A stretch of 64,000 nt of DNA, from positions 15,057,117 to 15,121,116 of the forward strand of contig OZ007583.1 in assembly GCA_963931925.1 (NCBI GenBank), written 5' to 3'. The position numbers were made by a program, and so were the translations under genes. Origin of the DNA: Onchidella celtica (lineage: Eukaryota > Mollusca > Gastropoda > Systellommatophora > Onchidiidae). Positions 5,012 to 47,916 of this stretch are shown one piece after another. Below the pieces are notes generated by a model. It was given only the letters and a program-made list of their open reading frames with translations, did not search any database and was not told where the DNA came from. Numbering within the stretch: position 1 is the first letter of the stretch; every line of letters begins with the position of its first letter.

Positions 5012-5186
5012 AAAGCTGGGTTTTCATGTGTACGGGAAAGACAAAGGAAACTTCAAGAACCCTTCAAGTAGTGAAACAGAAAGAACAGAGAACGTCGTTT
5101 CCTTACACATGTACACGCTTTTTAAAAACTACTTCATGCATTTTTGACATTTCCGTTTCCGTTACCGTACACATGAAAACACAACT
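5012..5186. mobile_element. Fold-back element, family B, copy 1
   Basis: The copy starts AAGCTGGGTTTTCATGTGTAC and ends in the inverted counterpart GTACACATGAAAACACAACT. The middle keeps the family's TTCAAGTAGTGAAA and CTACTTCATG pair, which are mutually inverted. Both arms are worn: the GGAAACGG block of the left arm is degraded here. Family members elsewhere: 13758, 14003, 24663, 31930, 32120 and 37300. Confidence 0.75.
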
Positions 5187-5887
5187 GTACACATTTTTTT
5201 TTTCATTTCAAAGCCATATCCATAACAAACAACGTGGGCGCCTGGTGTCCACTTTCTGGTTACAAATCAATTCAGGAATCCGTATTCCTGCGCTCTGTCC
5301 TGGGATTTTCCACAGTGGGCAGAAAGTTTACTCTGTCTCCGTACACCGGGTATAATAAGCCTCATGTATTGACTTGTACCGTGCGAGCCCAGTTGTATGC
5401 GGATCATTAACTCACTGTTCAAATTTGATACATTTTCTCTGTCCGACACGTTTTTTTTTTCCATGTATCGGTATCTTTCCTTCATTGACATCCCAGGACG
5501 TTAATTGTCCCTCCGTCCCCACTATTTCAAAAACAGTATCAGGACAGCGCGTATCGGCACAGCCTGGCGCATCATGATGATACCATGTCGATACGCCCTA
5601 AGCACAAACAACAAGGTCAATATCATTGTTTTTTTCCACACGTGTTTACCAACAGTGGCGACAAAACGCTTCATTGAGTAATGTCACATCATTAAAGATA
5701 TGTGTATTCAAGCAATAGTTCCTCTAAAATAACAATAAAAATAAATATTGATTGAGTACGGACATGTCCCATGTTTCAAACGACTGGGGAAAAGATAAGT
5801 GTATATAGTGTGCGGGTCATATATAATAGCTGGGCATAAAGTATTCCCTCAGAGCAGTTGATGTTAAATTTTGATGTCTAGGGGCAC
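5187..5887. other. Unassigned non-coding sequence
   Basis: Immediately precedes a TCTA array. No coding or mobile-element signature recognised. Confidence 0.4.
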
Positions 5888-6279
<392 letters not shown>

Positions 6280-8320
6280 CTTGCGTCAGATGGTTCAACA
6301 CGCATTGTTGAATTGAATGCCATAATTCAGCGTTGGGCAGAACATTTCGGAGGTGTGCTAAATCGGCCATCAAATATAAATACTGAGTCCATTGACCGCC
6401 TCCCTCAGACTCCTATTAATGCAGCTCTTGCCAAGCCATTCACAGCAAATGAGACCCGAACTGCCACAAATCAGATGTCCTTTAACAAATCACCAGGCGT
6501 GGATTCAATTCCTGCTGAGGTGTATACCTTCGGTGGAGAAAAGCTTATTGAAAGGTTGACCGAGTTGTTCAATCATATGTTGAAAGCAGGGAAGCTGCCA
6601 CAGGACTTCAAAGATGCTTCAATCATCCATCTGTACAAAAACAAAGGGGACAGCCAAGTCTGTGACAACCATCGGGGAATCTCTCTACTTTCAATTGCTG
6701 GCAAAATATTGGCAAGAATGCTTCTGAATCGCCTTCTTGATCACCTCTCGTCAAATGACTTGCTTCTCGAGAGCCAATGTGGCTTTCGTAAAGAGAGGGG
6801 AACGGCGGATATGATTTTTGCTGCCAGACAGATTCAGGAAAAATGCATGGAACAAAATAAAGCGCTGTATATCACATTTGTTGACCTCACAAAAGCGTTT
6901 GACACAGTGTGTCGTGAAGGCCTCTGGAAAATCTTGGCGAAGTTTGGGTGTCCACCCGAATTCATCACAATAGTGCGCCAGTTTCATGATGGCATGCAAG
7001 CTGCAGTCGAAAGCAACGGCAGTGTTTCAGAGCCCTTTGCTGTCACAAATGGGGTAAAACAGGGTTGTGTCTTAGCCCCCACTCTGTTCAGCATCATGTT
7101 CTCTGCAATGCTACAAGAAGCCTTTAGCTCTCCTCCTCAAGGGGTAAGCATCAAGTACCGAACTGATGGCAGTCTATTCAAACTCAGGAGACTTCAGGCA
7201 AAAACCAAAACCAAAAGTACTCAAGTCTGTGACCTACTATTTGCTGATTATTGTGCACTTCTGGCACACGATGAGGATAGCATGCAAAACTGTGTTGATA
7301 AGTTCTCTAGTGCCTGTGACAACTTTGGCCTCACAATAAGCACAAAGAAGACGGAAGTGCTCCATCAGCCTACTCCAGACGACAAGTATCCTGTGACCCC
7401 AAATATCAAAGTCCATGACAGTCTTCTGAAGGTGTCGGAGAACTTCACCTATCTTGGCAGTACACTGTCTTCCGCGGCTCGTGTTGATACTGAAATTCTC
7501 TCAAGAATCAGCAAAGCCAGCTCTGCATTTGGCAGGCTTCGAAAGAGAGTATGGGATGACGCCGGCATTCGCACAGACACTAAGCTGAAAGTGTACAATG
7601 CTGTGGTCCTTCCCACCCTACTCTATGGGGCTGAAACCTGGACAGTGTACCAATCGCATGCCAGAAAGCTAAATCACTTTCATCTGGCCTGCCTTACAAA
7701 GATCCTAAGGATCAAATGGCAGGATAAAATTCCAGACACTGAGGTCCTCAATCGTGCCAAAGAATTGAGCATCTTCTGCCACCTGAAAAAAATTCAGCTA
7801 CGTTGGGCAGGACATGTTGTCAGAATGCCCGACTCCAGACTCCCTAAGCAAATCTTCTTCTCTGAGCTCTCCAATGGAACGAGGAATGTTGGGGCCCCAA
7901 AGAGACGTTACAAAGACACTCTCAAGCAATCACTGAAGGCCTTTGCCATTGATGTGAGTGAGTGGGAAAAGCTCTCGCTTGATCGTGCAAATTGGAGGGC
8001 GGCCCTTACCAGAGGCAGCAAAGAATGGGAAGCTGACAGAGTCCAGCAGGCTATCAAAAAAAGAGAACGGCGCAAGAAAAGGCCCAGTGGTACTGAACCA
8101 ACGGAGCACTCTTGTCATTTATGCGGAAGGGTCTGCAGGGCAAAAATAGGACTTATCAGTCACATGAGAAGCCATAAGTCATGAAAGAACAGTCTTTCCA
8201 TTCTGTCCTCTGTATCCTTTAGTTCTCTTTATTGTCCATGTGTTGAAATTCTCAACAATTTCTGTTCTTTATTCCTCTGGTGTTGTTAAGGTCATCATCA
8301 TACCTGATGGACGAACTATT

Positions 8321-8830: not shown

Positions 8831-9266
8831 GACAACTAGAGTGGGGGGATATAAAATTGGGAACGACTCCCTGAAGGAACATCAAGAGCTGTCTGCCCCC
8901 TTGATTGGTACTTAGAACTACTTTTCTGGTGATCCCTTGCACTGGTACTGTGGATGCGGCAGGCTAACTTTGCCCTCTAATTTCATTACACAAACATTCG
9001 TACACTTGGAACTCAGTATAGTGCAATTTTAATGCATCAATGGAAACCTATGGGGAATCGAAAGAGAGACAAATTTCCCAGTATTACAGTTTCTTTAAAA
9101 GCAATTTAAAAGAAAAAAAGCTAGCATGTGTTTATTGCTTTATTTCATGTGTCGTCATAGAATTTGGGCTCCCAAAAGAACAAAATGAACTTTATTTTGT
9201 CTTTCGTCGGAAATTCCAAAGCCTGTCTGTTTGCCTGTCCGTCGGTCAGTCTGTCTGACTGCTTAG
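8831..9266. other. Unassigned non-coding sequence
   Basis: Ends in a short TCTG/TCCG-rich stretch (9220-9260) resembling the degenerate edges of the TCTA arrays. Otherwise nothing recognised. Confidence 0.4.
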
Positions 9267-9728
9267 GGGGACACTGTGGTCTAGGGGCAAGGTGCTCACC
9301 TCTCACGCCGAAGGTACGGGTTTCAAATCCCGGCCGGTGCAGGCATGCTGGAATTTTGGGATTTTCCCATATTTTCCTGTCCCTGATCCTTTGGGAGGTA
9401 GGATCAAACATCTATTCTAGTCTTCTCGGATAAGGACGAAAAATTTGGAGGGCGCACGTTAAAGATACCTTGGCCGTTGGAAATCGAAAACAGCAGGCCG
9501 AACACCCCGCATGCCGGGTCAAAATTAAATGAAATGCACCCCTACCACTCCCACCCCCTCACCCCCACCCCCCTCCCTAAAAAAAAAACAAAAAACGCCA
9601 ACCGACGCTGCACTGCGGCGACGGCGTGCCTGCCCCAGTTGAAACTGGGCTGCAATGACACGAAAGCAGATTTCCCAAATATGATTAAAGAAGTATACAA
9701 AACACAAAAATTCAAAAATACAAAAATT
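9267..9728 (+). mobile_element. tRNA-derived SINE, alpha tail, copy a
   Basis: The tRNA-like head has an A-box-like TGGTCTAGGGGCAAGG near 9278 and a B-box-like GGGTTTCAAATCCCGG near 9317; these are internal RNA polymerase III promoter elements. The body contains TTCTCGGATAAGGACGAAAA and AGATACCTTGGCCGTTGG. A C-rich linker and the alpha tail follow, with a CCAGTTGAAACTGGGCTGCA hairpin and GAAGTATACAAA. The same architecture recurs at 16930, 20376 and 31231. Mobilisation would need a LINE in trans. Confidence 0.88.
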
Positions 9729-13757: not shown

Positions 13758-13993
13758 AAAGCTGTGTTCTCATGTGTACGGAAACGGAAACAGATATGTC
13801 GAAAACCCGTTTTCTGGGTTCTCATGTGTACGGAAACGGAAACGGCAAAAAAATCACTCATATGATAAAATGAAAGAGTGTTTCCATGTGTACGGAAACG
13901 GCGTGCGGAAACGTTCTTTATATTTCACTACTTGAATGCTCTTTGGCGTTTCCGTTGCCGTTTCCGTTTCCGTATACATGAGAACCCAGCTTA
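13758..13993. mobile_element. Fold-back element, family B, copy 2
   Basis: The left arm is AAGCTGTGTTCTCATGTGTA followed by GGAAACGGAAAC. The right arm is the inverted GTTTCCGTTTCCGTATACAT followed by GAGAACCCAGCTT. The left-arm module is present twice (13760 and 13815), so this copy is longer than the others. An internal GTTTCCATGTGTACGGAAAC also belongs to the family. Confidence 0.85.
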
Positions 13994-14002
13994 AGTACTA
14001 AA

Positions 14003-14119
14003 CCCTTAATGTGTACGGAAACGGCCATGAAAATATTCTTTTGATTTCACTACTTGAGGGTTTTTGACTTTTCTGTTGCCGTTTCCGTTTCCCTCCATAT
14101 GAAAACACAGCTTAAGGGT
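14003..14119. mobile_element. Fold-back element, family B, copy 3 (partial)
   Basis: A shortened copy. The left part starts CCCTTAATGTGTACGGAAAC and the right arm ends GAAAACACAGCTTAAGGG, so the extreme ends AACCCTTA and TAAGGGTT are also inverted. It lies 9 bp from copy 2. Confidence 0.75.
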
Positions 14120-24662: not shown

Positions 24663-24860
24663 AAGGCTGTGTTTTTATGTGTACGGAAACAGAAACGGCA
24701 ACGGAAACGTCAGAAACCCGTTAATTAATGAAATAGCAAGAATGTTTCCAGGTCAACGGAAACGGCGTTTTCGTACACATGGAAACACTCTTTCTTTTTA
24801 ATACTAGATACAGTTTTGAAGTTTTCCTTGCCGTTTCCGTTTCTGCCAGTCGAAAAGCAA
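24663..24860. mobile_element. Fold-back element, family B, copy 4
   Basis: The left arm is AAGGCTGTGTTTTTATGTGT then ACGGAAACAGAAACGGCAAC. The centre contains ACGGAAACGGCGTTTTCGTA and ACACATGGAAACACTCTTT. The right arm is TTGCCGTTTCCGTTTCTGCC. The right terminus is more diverged than the left. Confidence 0.8.
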
Positions 24861-31929: not shown

Positions 31930-32120
31930 AGGCCGTGTTTTCATGGGTACAGAGACGGACACGGCAACAGAATTGCCGAAAATCCATCAAGTAGTAAAAA
32001 GAAAGACTGTTTTCATGTGTAAGGAAACGGCATGAAATAAAGTTTTCTGTTTCACTACTTGAAGAGTTTTTGCCGTTTCTTTTGCCCTTGGAGTTTCCAC
32101 GCACATGAAAACCCAGCTTT
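31930..32120. mobile_element. Fold-back element, family B, copy 5
   Basis: The left arm reads GGCCGTGTTTTCATGGGTAC then a diverged GGACACGGCAAC. The right arm reads GTTTCCACGCACATGAAAAC then CCAGCTT. The inner pair ATCAAGTAGTAAAA and TTTCACTACTTGAAG is conserved. It directly abuts copy 6. Confidence 0.8.
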
Positions 32121-32315
32121 AAGCTGTGTTTTCATATGTACGGAAACGGAAACGGCAATTGAAACGTCAGAAACTCTCCGAGTAGCGAAATTAAGCATGT
32201 TTTCATTTGTACGTGAACTCCGTTTCCGTACACATGGAAATATCCTTTCCTTTTACAACTTGATAGATTTTGACGTTTCCGTTGCCATTTCCTCACATAT
32301 GGAAACACAGCTTAA
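32120..32315. mobile_element. Fold-back element, family B, copy 6
   Basis: The left arm AAGCTGTGTTTTCATATGTA plus CGGAAACGGAAACGGCAATT and the right arm GACGTTTCCGTTGCCATTTC plus CATATGGAAACACAGCTT. The two termini are nearly perfect inverted repeats. It shares its left boundary with copy 5, so the pair is a back-to-back dimer. Confidence 0.87.
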
Positions 32316-47106: not shown

Positions 47107-47916
47107 GTCATGTCCTCGTTGTGGCCGGGGTTCTAGAAGATGTCATGTCCTCGTTGTGGCCGGGGTTCTAGAAGATGTCATGTCCTCGTTGTGGCCGGGG
47201 TTCTAGAAGATGTCATGTCCTCGTTGTGGCCGGGGTTCTAGAAGATGTCATGTCCTCGTTGTGGCCGGGGTTCTAGAAGATGTCATGTCCTCGTTGTGGC
47301 CGGGGTTCTAGAAGATGTCATGTCCTCGTTGTGGCCGGGGTTCTAGAAGATGTCATGTCCTCGTTGTGGCCGGGGTTCTAGAAGATGTCATGTCCTCGTT
47401 GTGGCCGGGGTTCTAGAAGATGTCATGTCCTCGTTGTGGCCGGGGTTCTAGAAGATGTCATGTCCTCGTTGTGGCCGGGGGTTCTAGAAGATGTCATGTC
47501 CTCGTTGTGGCCGGGGTTCTAGAAGATGTCATGTCCTCGTTGTGGCCGGGGTTCTAGAAGATGTCATGTCCTCGTTGTGGCCGGGGTTCTAGAAGATGTC
47601 ATGTCCTCGTTGTGGCCGGGGTTCTAGAAGATGTCATGTCCTCGTTGTGGCCGGGGTTCTAGAAGATGTCATGTCCTCGTTGTGGCCGGGGTTCTAGAAG
47701 ATGTCATGTCCTCGTTGTGGCCGGGGTTCTAGAAGATGTCATGTCCTCGTTGTGGCCGGGGTTCTAGAAGATGTCATGTCCTCGTTGTGGCCGGGGTTCT
47801 AGAAGATGTCATGTCCTCGTTGTGGCCGGGGTTCTAGAAGATGTCATGTCCTCGTTGTGGCCGGGGTTCTAGAAGATGTCATGTCCTCGTTGTGGCCGGG
47901 GTTCTAGAAGATGCCA
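47107..47916 (+). repeat. 35-bp satellite-like tandem array, 23 copies
   Basis: The unit TGTCCTCGTTGTGGCCGGGG plus TTCTAGAAGATGTCA begins at 47111 and repeats exactly every 35 bp to 47882. The only differences are one extra G near 47480 and a changed base in the last unit (ATGCCA). There are no spacers. A 35-base unit shifts frame at each copy and contains TAG, so the array does not encode a repeat protein. Confidence 0.98.

Follow-up and report, generated by a model that had tools for sequence, protein, structure and literature searches.

The analysed window is a 64-kb stretch of Onchidella celtica contig OZ007583.1, which holds a dispersed palindromic family represented by seven related elements. 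These were read from eight matches to a profile built from 60 genomic copies, as follows:

5014..5186, + strand: full-length copy (profile match), flanks TAA / GTA
13760..13810, strand not assigned (best profile match on +): single arm of an older copy, with TAA on its outer side
13812..13991, − strand: full copy inside the older one (profile match), flanks GTT / TAA
14009..14112, − strand: remainder of the older copy, lacking about 18 model positions, with TAA on its outer side
24666..24845, + strand: 5' end intact (flank TAA), 3' end decayed or lost, model positions 2–162
31931..32118, − strand: full copy, with TTA on either side as read on the + strand
32122..32312, + strand: full copy directly adjoining the preceding one, flanks TTA / TAA
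37304..37413, − strand: truncated or decayed copy, model positions 94–178

The pieces at 13760–13810 and 14009–14112 were read together as one older element on the − strand, and the TAA following position 14112 is the same as the TAA preceding 13760. The junctions of the copy at 13812–13991 are not clean, and its two outermost bases on the low side are altered. The sequence at 13758–13993 is as given in the initial annotation; the interval, regarded there as a single copy, actually spans an arm of the older copy plus the complete inner copy. At 31931–32312, two MITE copies lie in opposite orientation with a single TTA common to both, as if one copy had been inserted into the duplication of the other.

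Fuzzy matching of the TIR within the window (up to four errors) placed TIR-like ends starting at 5015, 13761, 24666, 32123 and 37304 on the + strand and finishing at 5185, 13990, 14111, 32117 and 32311 on the − strand. At this threshold the left end of the copy at 31930 was missed, and inner motifs were matched as well, each with four errors, at 32195 and 37378 on the + strand and at 24790 on the − strand. Counting all combinations of inverted ends in the window, 17 end pairs 60–420 bp apart were observed versus 0 in each of eight dinucleotide shuffles; together with the seven elements found by the profile, this shows that the previously noted seven-copy family is real. The inverted ends said to be shared by all copies are consistent in the family, but the copies noted at 24663, 37300 and 14003 are without two good ends. 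Exact matches to the inner motif TTCAAGTAGTGAAA or its complement lie at 5063, 13923 and 32050, and three further places in the window, two of them outside any copy, match with two errors. The core TTTCCATGTGTACGGAAACGG occurs without error at 13881 and 32220.

The window also carries a 769-codon open frame (5875–8184) that runs in from a CTAT microsatellite and which we take to resemble a reverse transcriptase with a C2H2-like end, as well as a 35-bp unit repeated in 23 copies (47107–47913, 99% matching). Another dispersed repeat, with pieces such as CGCACGTTAAAGATACCTTGG, is found at 9262, 31223, 33534, 50742 and 52326 (D17) and at 9453, 20595, 31392, 33803, 50937 and 52512 (D18). The stretch 9267–9725, belonging to the D17/D18 repeat, has relatives in L001, L086, L093 and other loci.

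Structure and abundance of the family

The genome searched was the 1.14-Gb assembly of 43 contigs. The 60 end pairs, obtained out of 86 records (30 of the 86 were without an acceptable pair), delimit full copies of 109–234 bp, mostly 150–206 bp. Full copies are near-palindromes starting with A-GCTG[G/T]GTT[C/T]TCATGTGTACGG. The 60-copy consensus has 179 nt and starts with AGCTGGGTTTTCATGTGTACGGAAACGGAAACGGCAACGGAAACGTC, the opposite end being nearly its inverse, and nearly the full sequence folds back on itself (−110.8 kcal/mol with RNA parameters). The consensus of 90 full copies, kept from 159, folds at −97.6 kcal/mol, and the ten single copies shown range from −47.6 to −94.7 kcal/mol. GGAAAC/GTTTCC hexamers occur 5.0 times per copy on average (range 2–9) versus 0.07 in shuffles in a set of 67 copies, which are the full-length ones among 111 matches; the initial annotation was right about GGAAAC repeats inside the copies and about their ability to form nested hairpins. 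The palindromic motif GTTTYC-N8-GGAAAC was read from the sequences at both ends and again near the centre. The elements diverge from the consensus by 6–25%, with a median of 11.6%.

The strong folding of the consensus and of single copies would be expected if the palindrome were maintained for the function of a hairpin RNA or cruciform, as a small-RNA source or a structural element, and compensatory double changes taken altogether (47 versus 39.1, sd 5.7, in shuffles) point the same way. However, 19 of these 47 are one subfamily change, and private doubles, present in at most two copies, number 28 versus 27.1 expected, with 4,687 paired cells versus 4,670 (sd 12.6) over 90 copies and 73 pairs. 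The arms mutate and decay independently, so that selection on a hairpin RNA is not supported, and Rfam gave no match in the window at gathering thresholds. A functional hairpin is therefore regarded as very improbable; the fold-back shape would follow from arms made of putative binding sites, with no RNA function.

The exact arm GGAAACGGAAACGG occurs 2,612 times in the genome (1,279 + 1,333) versus 77 (64 + 13) for the pattern read backwards, as could be anticipated from the high abundance implied by the initial annotation, and GCTGTGTTTTCATGTGTACGGAAACGG occurs 118 + 120 times versus 0 for its control. The family is dispersed through the genome in hundreds to thousands of copies, and a rough extrapolation from one 200-kb neighbourhood gives some tens of thousands. 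This neighbourhood, the 200 kb beside the window (22.7 kb of it N), has six profile matches versus seven elements in the 64-kb window, which is thus copy-rich relative to its surroundings.

Target-site duplication and classification

T-N-A abuts both ends in 69 of the 90 full copies; in this set, T stands first in 91% of left and 92% of right flanks, and A stands third in 97% of left and 90% of right flanks. Flanks match over exactly 3 bp in 23 of 60 copies and over 4 to 10 bp in none of the 60. In the search for paralogous empty sites, flanks shorter than 25 bases were skipped and eight joined flanks matched across the junction. The copies at 13811 and 31930 of the window and L035 were dropped from the set, since their joined flanks matched other family copies. 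A single TNA was read at the empty sites of L013 and L029, each from two paralogues, and of L019, for which one of three paralogues is clean and the other two have gaps at the site. The single TNA at empty sites and the T-N-A flanks together indicate that insertion duplicates 3 bp, and the duplications, which it had been suggested to map, read TNA, mostly TTA or TAA.

We consider it highly likely that the family consists of non-autonomous MITEs of the PIF/Harbinger type (PHIS superfamily). The features this explains best were all observed: inverted ends, the 3-bp TNA duplication, high copy number, near-palindromy, hexamer-rich arms and a longer relative. In the available part of PMC4482050, a 3-bp duplication is given as the mark of PIF/Harbinger-type transposons, with TWA as the rule, and the 3-bp TNA duplication leads to the present assignment. 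Membership is based on the TIRs and the target-site duplication as read from sequence. Terminal inverted repeats are present, and TWA duplication was seen at the empty sites of three copies and in the matching classes of exact-ended copies (219 of 330, odds ratio 4.2), while 111 of the 330 mismatch.

An alternative, which we think unlikely, is membership of the family in NuwaII, a group of the PHIS superfamily, rather than in PIF/Harbinger proper; NuwaII targets are C|TNA|G and those of PIF/Harbinger proper TWA, as stated in the accessible text of PMC4482050. In the 67-copy set, C adjoins TNA on the outside in 29 of 67 left flanks and (as complement) in 28 of 67 right flanks, and TGA and TCA flanks occur. 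However, C is favoured and not fixed, and T or A occupies the middle position of 62 left and 56 right flanks out of 67 each, as in PIF/Harbinger. The long inverted arms with short internal repeats, able to form nested hairpins, also recall a Foldback (FB/MULE-type) transposon, but FB/MULE duplications are about 9 bp long and none of the 60 copies matches over 4–10 bp, so this identity was rejected as extremely improbable.

Two other assignments were rejected as well. ISL2EU duplicates the dinucleotide AT, while the flank triplet here is T-N-A and empty sites show one TNA. The piggyBac and Kolobok duplication is TTAA, while only 10 of 67 left flanks and 16 of 67 right flanks here have T as their fourth base, and 0 of 60 copies match over 4 bp.

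The initial annotation recognised no named family, and none was found in the literature; the kind of element is nevertheless recognisable as a PIF/Harbinger-type MITE. No literature match was obtained to four 15-base words of the element, and the available part of PMC10294476 contains no description of this MITE family. Judged against the literature only, the family is new, with an unusual, all-palindrome and hexamer-rich build. It matters mainly for the annotation of this genome.

Longer relative and possible source of transposase

A longer element with the 5' end of the MITE occurs at four loci (L006, L018, L020 and L055). Two of its copies were read to both ends, one running from C1:19545763 for about 2.56 kb, the other downward from C1:10776830 for about 2.25 kb. 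Aligned with each other, they are 92.6% and 90.5% identical in the two main blocks. The element has AGCTGTGTTCTC as its 5' end and the inverse of AGGGGTGTTCTC as its 3' end. Both read copies are flanked by TAA/TTA; on their left side, the two remaining loci have TAA and TGA. Of 217 candidates, 40 were scored, and all 40 are 95–100% identical to nearly the whole 323-base query; as the MITE stands at a median of 11.6% from its consensus, the longer relative looks younger. Two matches to it, C1:10776393 and C1:10778540 (L006 at about 1605), lie on the same strand 2,147 bp apart and are apparently a tandem pair with one common flank, one end running ...CACCCCTTAAAGCTG... into the next.

An exon-like frame near the 5' end of the longer relative reads ...RERRWWVNDYF..., and its RRWWV peptide resembles the start of Harbinger transposases. 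A Pfam search with the 69-aa exon-like peptide gave nothing at E values up to 10, nor was any long transposase-like frame recognised in the 2.25–2.56 kb. Searching for DDE_Tnp_4 (PF13359) gave 1,393 first-look candidates in the genome, and all 150 that were scored exceeded the cut-off; among control genomes, a match was found in 1 of 14. When the 40 scored copies of the longer relative (of 217) were compared by eye with the coordinates of the 150 scored PF13359 matches (of 1,393), none lay within 10 kb of one. PF13359 frames of 523 aa with identical scores are present on many contigs, some of them in rows with a spacing of 6,302 and 6,316 bp (C16:42125804, 42132106 and 42138408; C1:24408903 and 24415219), a pattern suggestive of a recent expansion of Harbinger elements, partly in tandem.

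No transposase is tied to the MITE ends, and among the loci read the autonomous partner with the same termini that had been proposed was not identified, the only relative being the 2.25–2.56 kb element without a recognised transposase frame. The MITE may be moved in trans by the DDE_Tnp_4 transposase of another element in the genome, probably assisted by a Myb-like partner, and the hexamer arrays and the GTTTYC-N8-GGAAAC motif are probably binding sites of the mobilising proteins.

Middle bases of the flanking triplets

Although the duplication is real, another base frequently stands at its middle position, the outer T and A being retained. Genome-wide, copies with exact ends (AGCTGGGTT...AACCCAGCT, 172–202 bp with flanks, T or A middle bases only) fall into 114 TTA/TTA, 105 TAA/TAA, 40 TTA/TAA and 71 TAA/TTA, and the reversed-pattern control gave 0 each time. 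The middle bases of these 330 copies agree more often than by chance (odds ratio 4.2, p 7e-10), and the 34% that are unequal (111/330) compare with about 5% expected from mutation (p 7e-60) and 50% if the two sides were independent (p 1e-9). TAA/TTA also exceeds TTA/TAA (p 0.004). Among the 69 sampled copies with TNA on both sides, 31 match, 21 are T/A mismatches and 17 are of other kinds; agreement in this sample is not clearly above chance (about 26 expected, permutation p 0.12), while a smaller sample gave 30/55 (permutation p 0.017); for the 23 full copies obtained with another TIR pattern, agreement was seen in a single one of 14. In two mismatched copies, L072 (TTA/TAA) and L073 (TCA/TAA), the empty sites mostly read TTA: the single paralogue of L072 (83% over 59 bases) has TTA, and those of L073 vary, most having TTA. 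One flank of each copy thus carries a base, A, that is not the target's.

Two explanations remain, ectopic conversion between copies and carry-over of an overhang at transposition. The first is quite possible, though we stop short of calling it probable: conversion tracts would leave the TIR through the shared TNA. The copies are numerous and similar, and the outer T and A are common to them, so that a tract could stop just past the middle base. Ectopic conversion predicts the same four-class table as donor carry-over, and nothing speaks directly against it, as the test on the arms bears on conversion within a copy and not between copies.

Tentatively, we propose as the other explanation that the element leaves with 3-nt TNA 5' overhangs, which would often be annealed and ligated at the new site and not trimmed. 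An overhang from the old site would then sometimes be retained, giving flanks with unequal middle bases. Each junction would keep either the donor's or the target's middle base, and part of the 'duplication' would be coupling sequence from the previous site. Tn916-like elements offer a comparison, as they bring coupling sequence from their previous site. Under a simple model of our own, m = f/(1+f), which assumes that T and A are equally common, donor-base junctions would amount to about 0.4 to 0.5 (0.51 uncorrected). For mPing, an excision model has 3-nt 5' overhangs at the target-site duplication, and TAA/TTA was repaired better than TTA/TAA (PMC4561436, available part); by analogy, the two mismatches may be processed differently here, which would account for the 71:40 excess of TAA/TTA. 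The same portion of that study gives, for a TCA/TCA donor, 46 insertions of mPing, 45 to TTA or TAA and 1 to TCA, which disfavours frequent carry-over of the donor triplet in mPing.

Plain mutation of old duplications is refuted as the whole explanation and has hardly any likelihood left. Copies are indeed 6–25% off the consensus, and in the first 60 copies the ratio of same to inverted triplets hints at a trend across divergence thirds, least diverged first (11:3, 7:6, 5:6). In the 90-copy set, however, the thirds show no clear trend (matches 12/24, 11/22 and 8/23; T/A mismatches 7, 6 and 8). Moreover, the family's own substitution spectrum predicts about 80% matches, 4–5% T/A and 15–17% other, against the 31, 21 and 17 found in 69 sampled copies (T/A excess, p 4e-12), the genome-wide proportion is far above the 5% expected, and the outer T and A stay at 90–97%.

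Hairpin-driven correction within a copy was rejected as the cause of the T/A mismatches, there being no excess of private compensatory changes. A subfamily-specific mismatch was also set aside: in the 69 sampled copies the CTC type has 11 matches, 1 T/A and 4 others, and the rest 20, 20 and 13, while by eye the CTC type makes up 14 of the 19 TTA/TAA places shown with letters (of 40), so subfamily specificity is not relied on.

The mismatch pattern merits follow-up, the family itself being ordinary. If overhang carry-over were true, the pattern would provide natural, genome-scale evidence on the cut position and the fate of the overhang in PIF/Harbinger, and non-matching flanks would not exclude a true insertion in this superfamily. 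The existing evidence on this step of transposition, as far as the available part of PMC4561436 describes it, is a yeast assay with mPing.

Several known systems share features with the family. FB elements have long inverted arms with internal repeats. Tetris resembles the family in the same way (PMC4079207, as far as its available text goes), but the length of the duplication studied here fits neither. The NuwaII group shares the TNA duplication with C favoured before and G after it (PMC4482050, in the portion available), unlike the present family, in which that C stands outside TNA in less than half of the flanks. The closest likeness is with Tourist-like MITEs such as mPing, which are likewise short and non-coding, with TIRs and a 3-bp TTA/TAA duplication; in the accessible parts of PMC2836001 and PMC4561436, mPing is moved in trans by ORF1 (Myb-like) and a transposase. 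Unlike mPing, the present family is almost wholly palindromic and built of hexamers, and unequal TTA/TAA flanks are common in it, whereas carry-over of the donor triplet looks rare in mPing.
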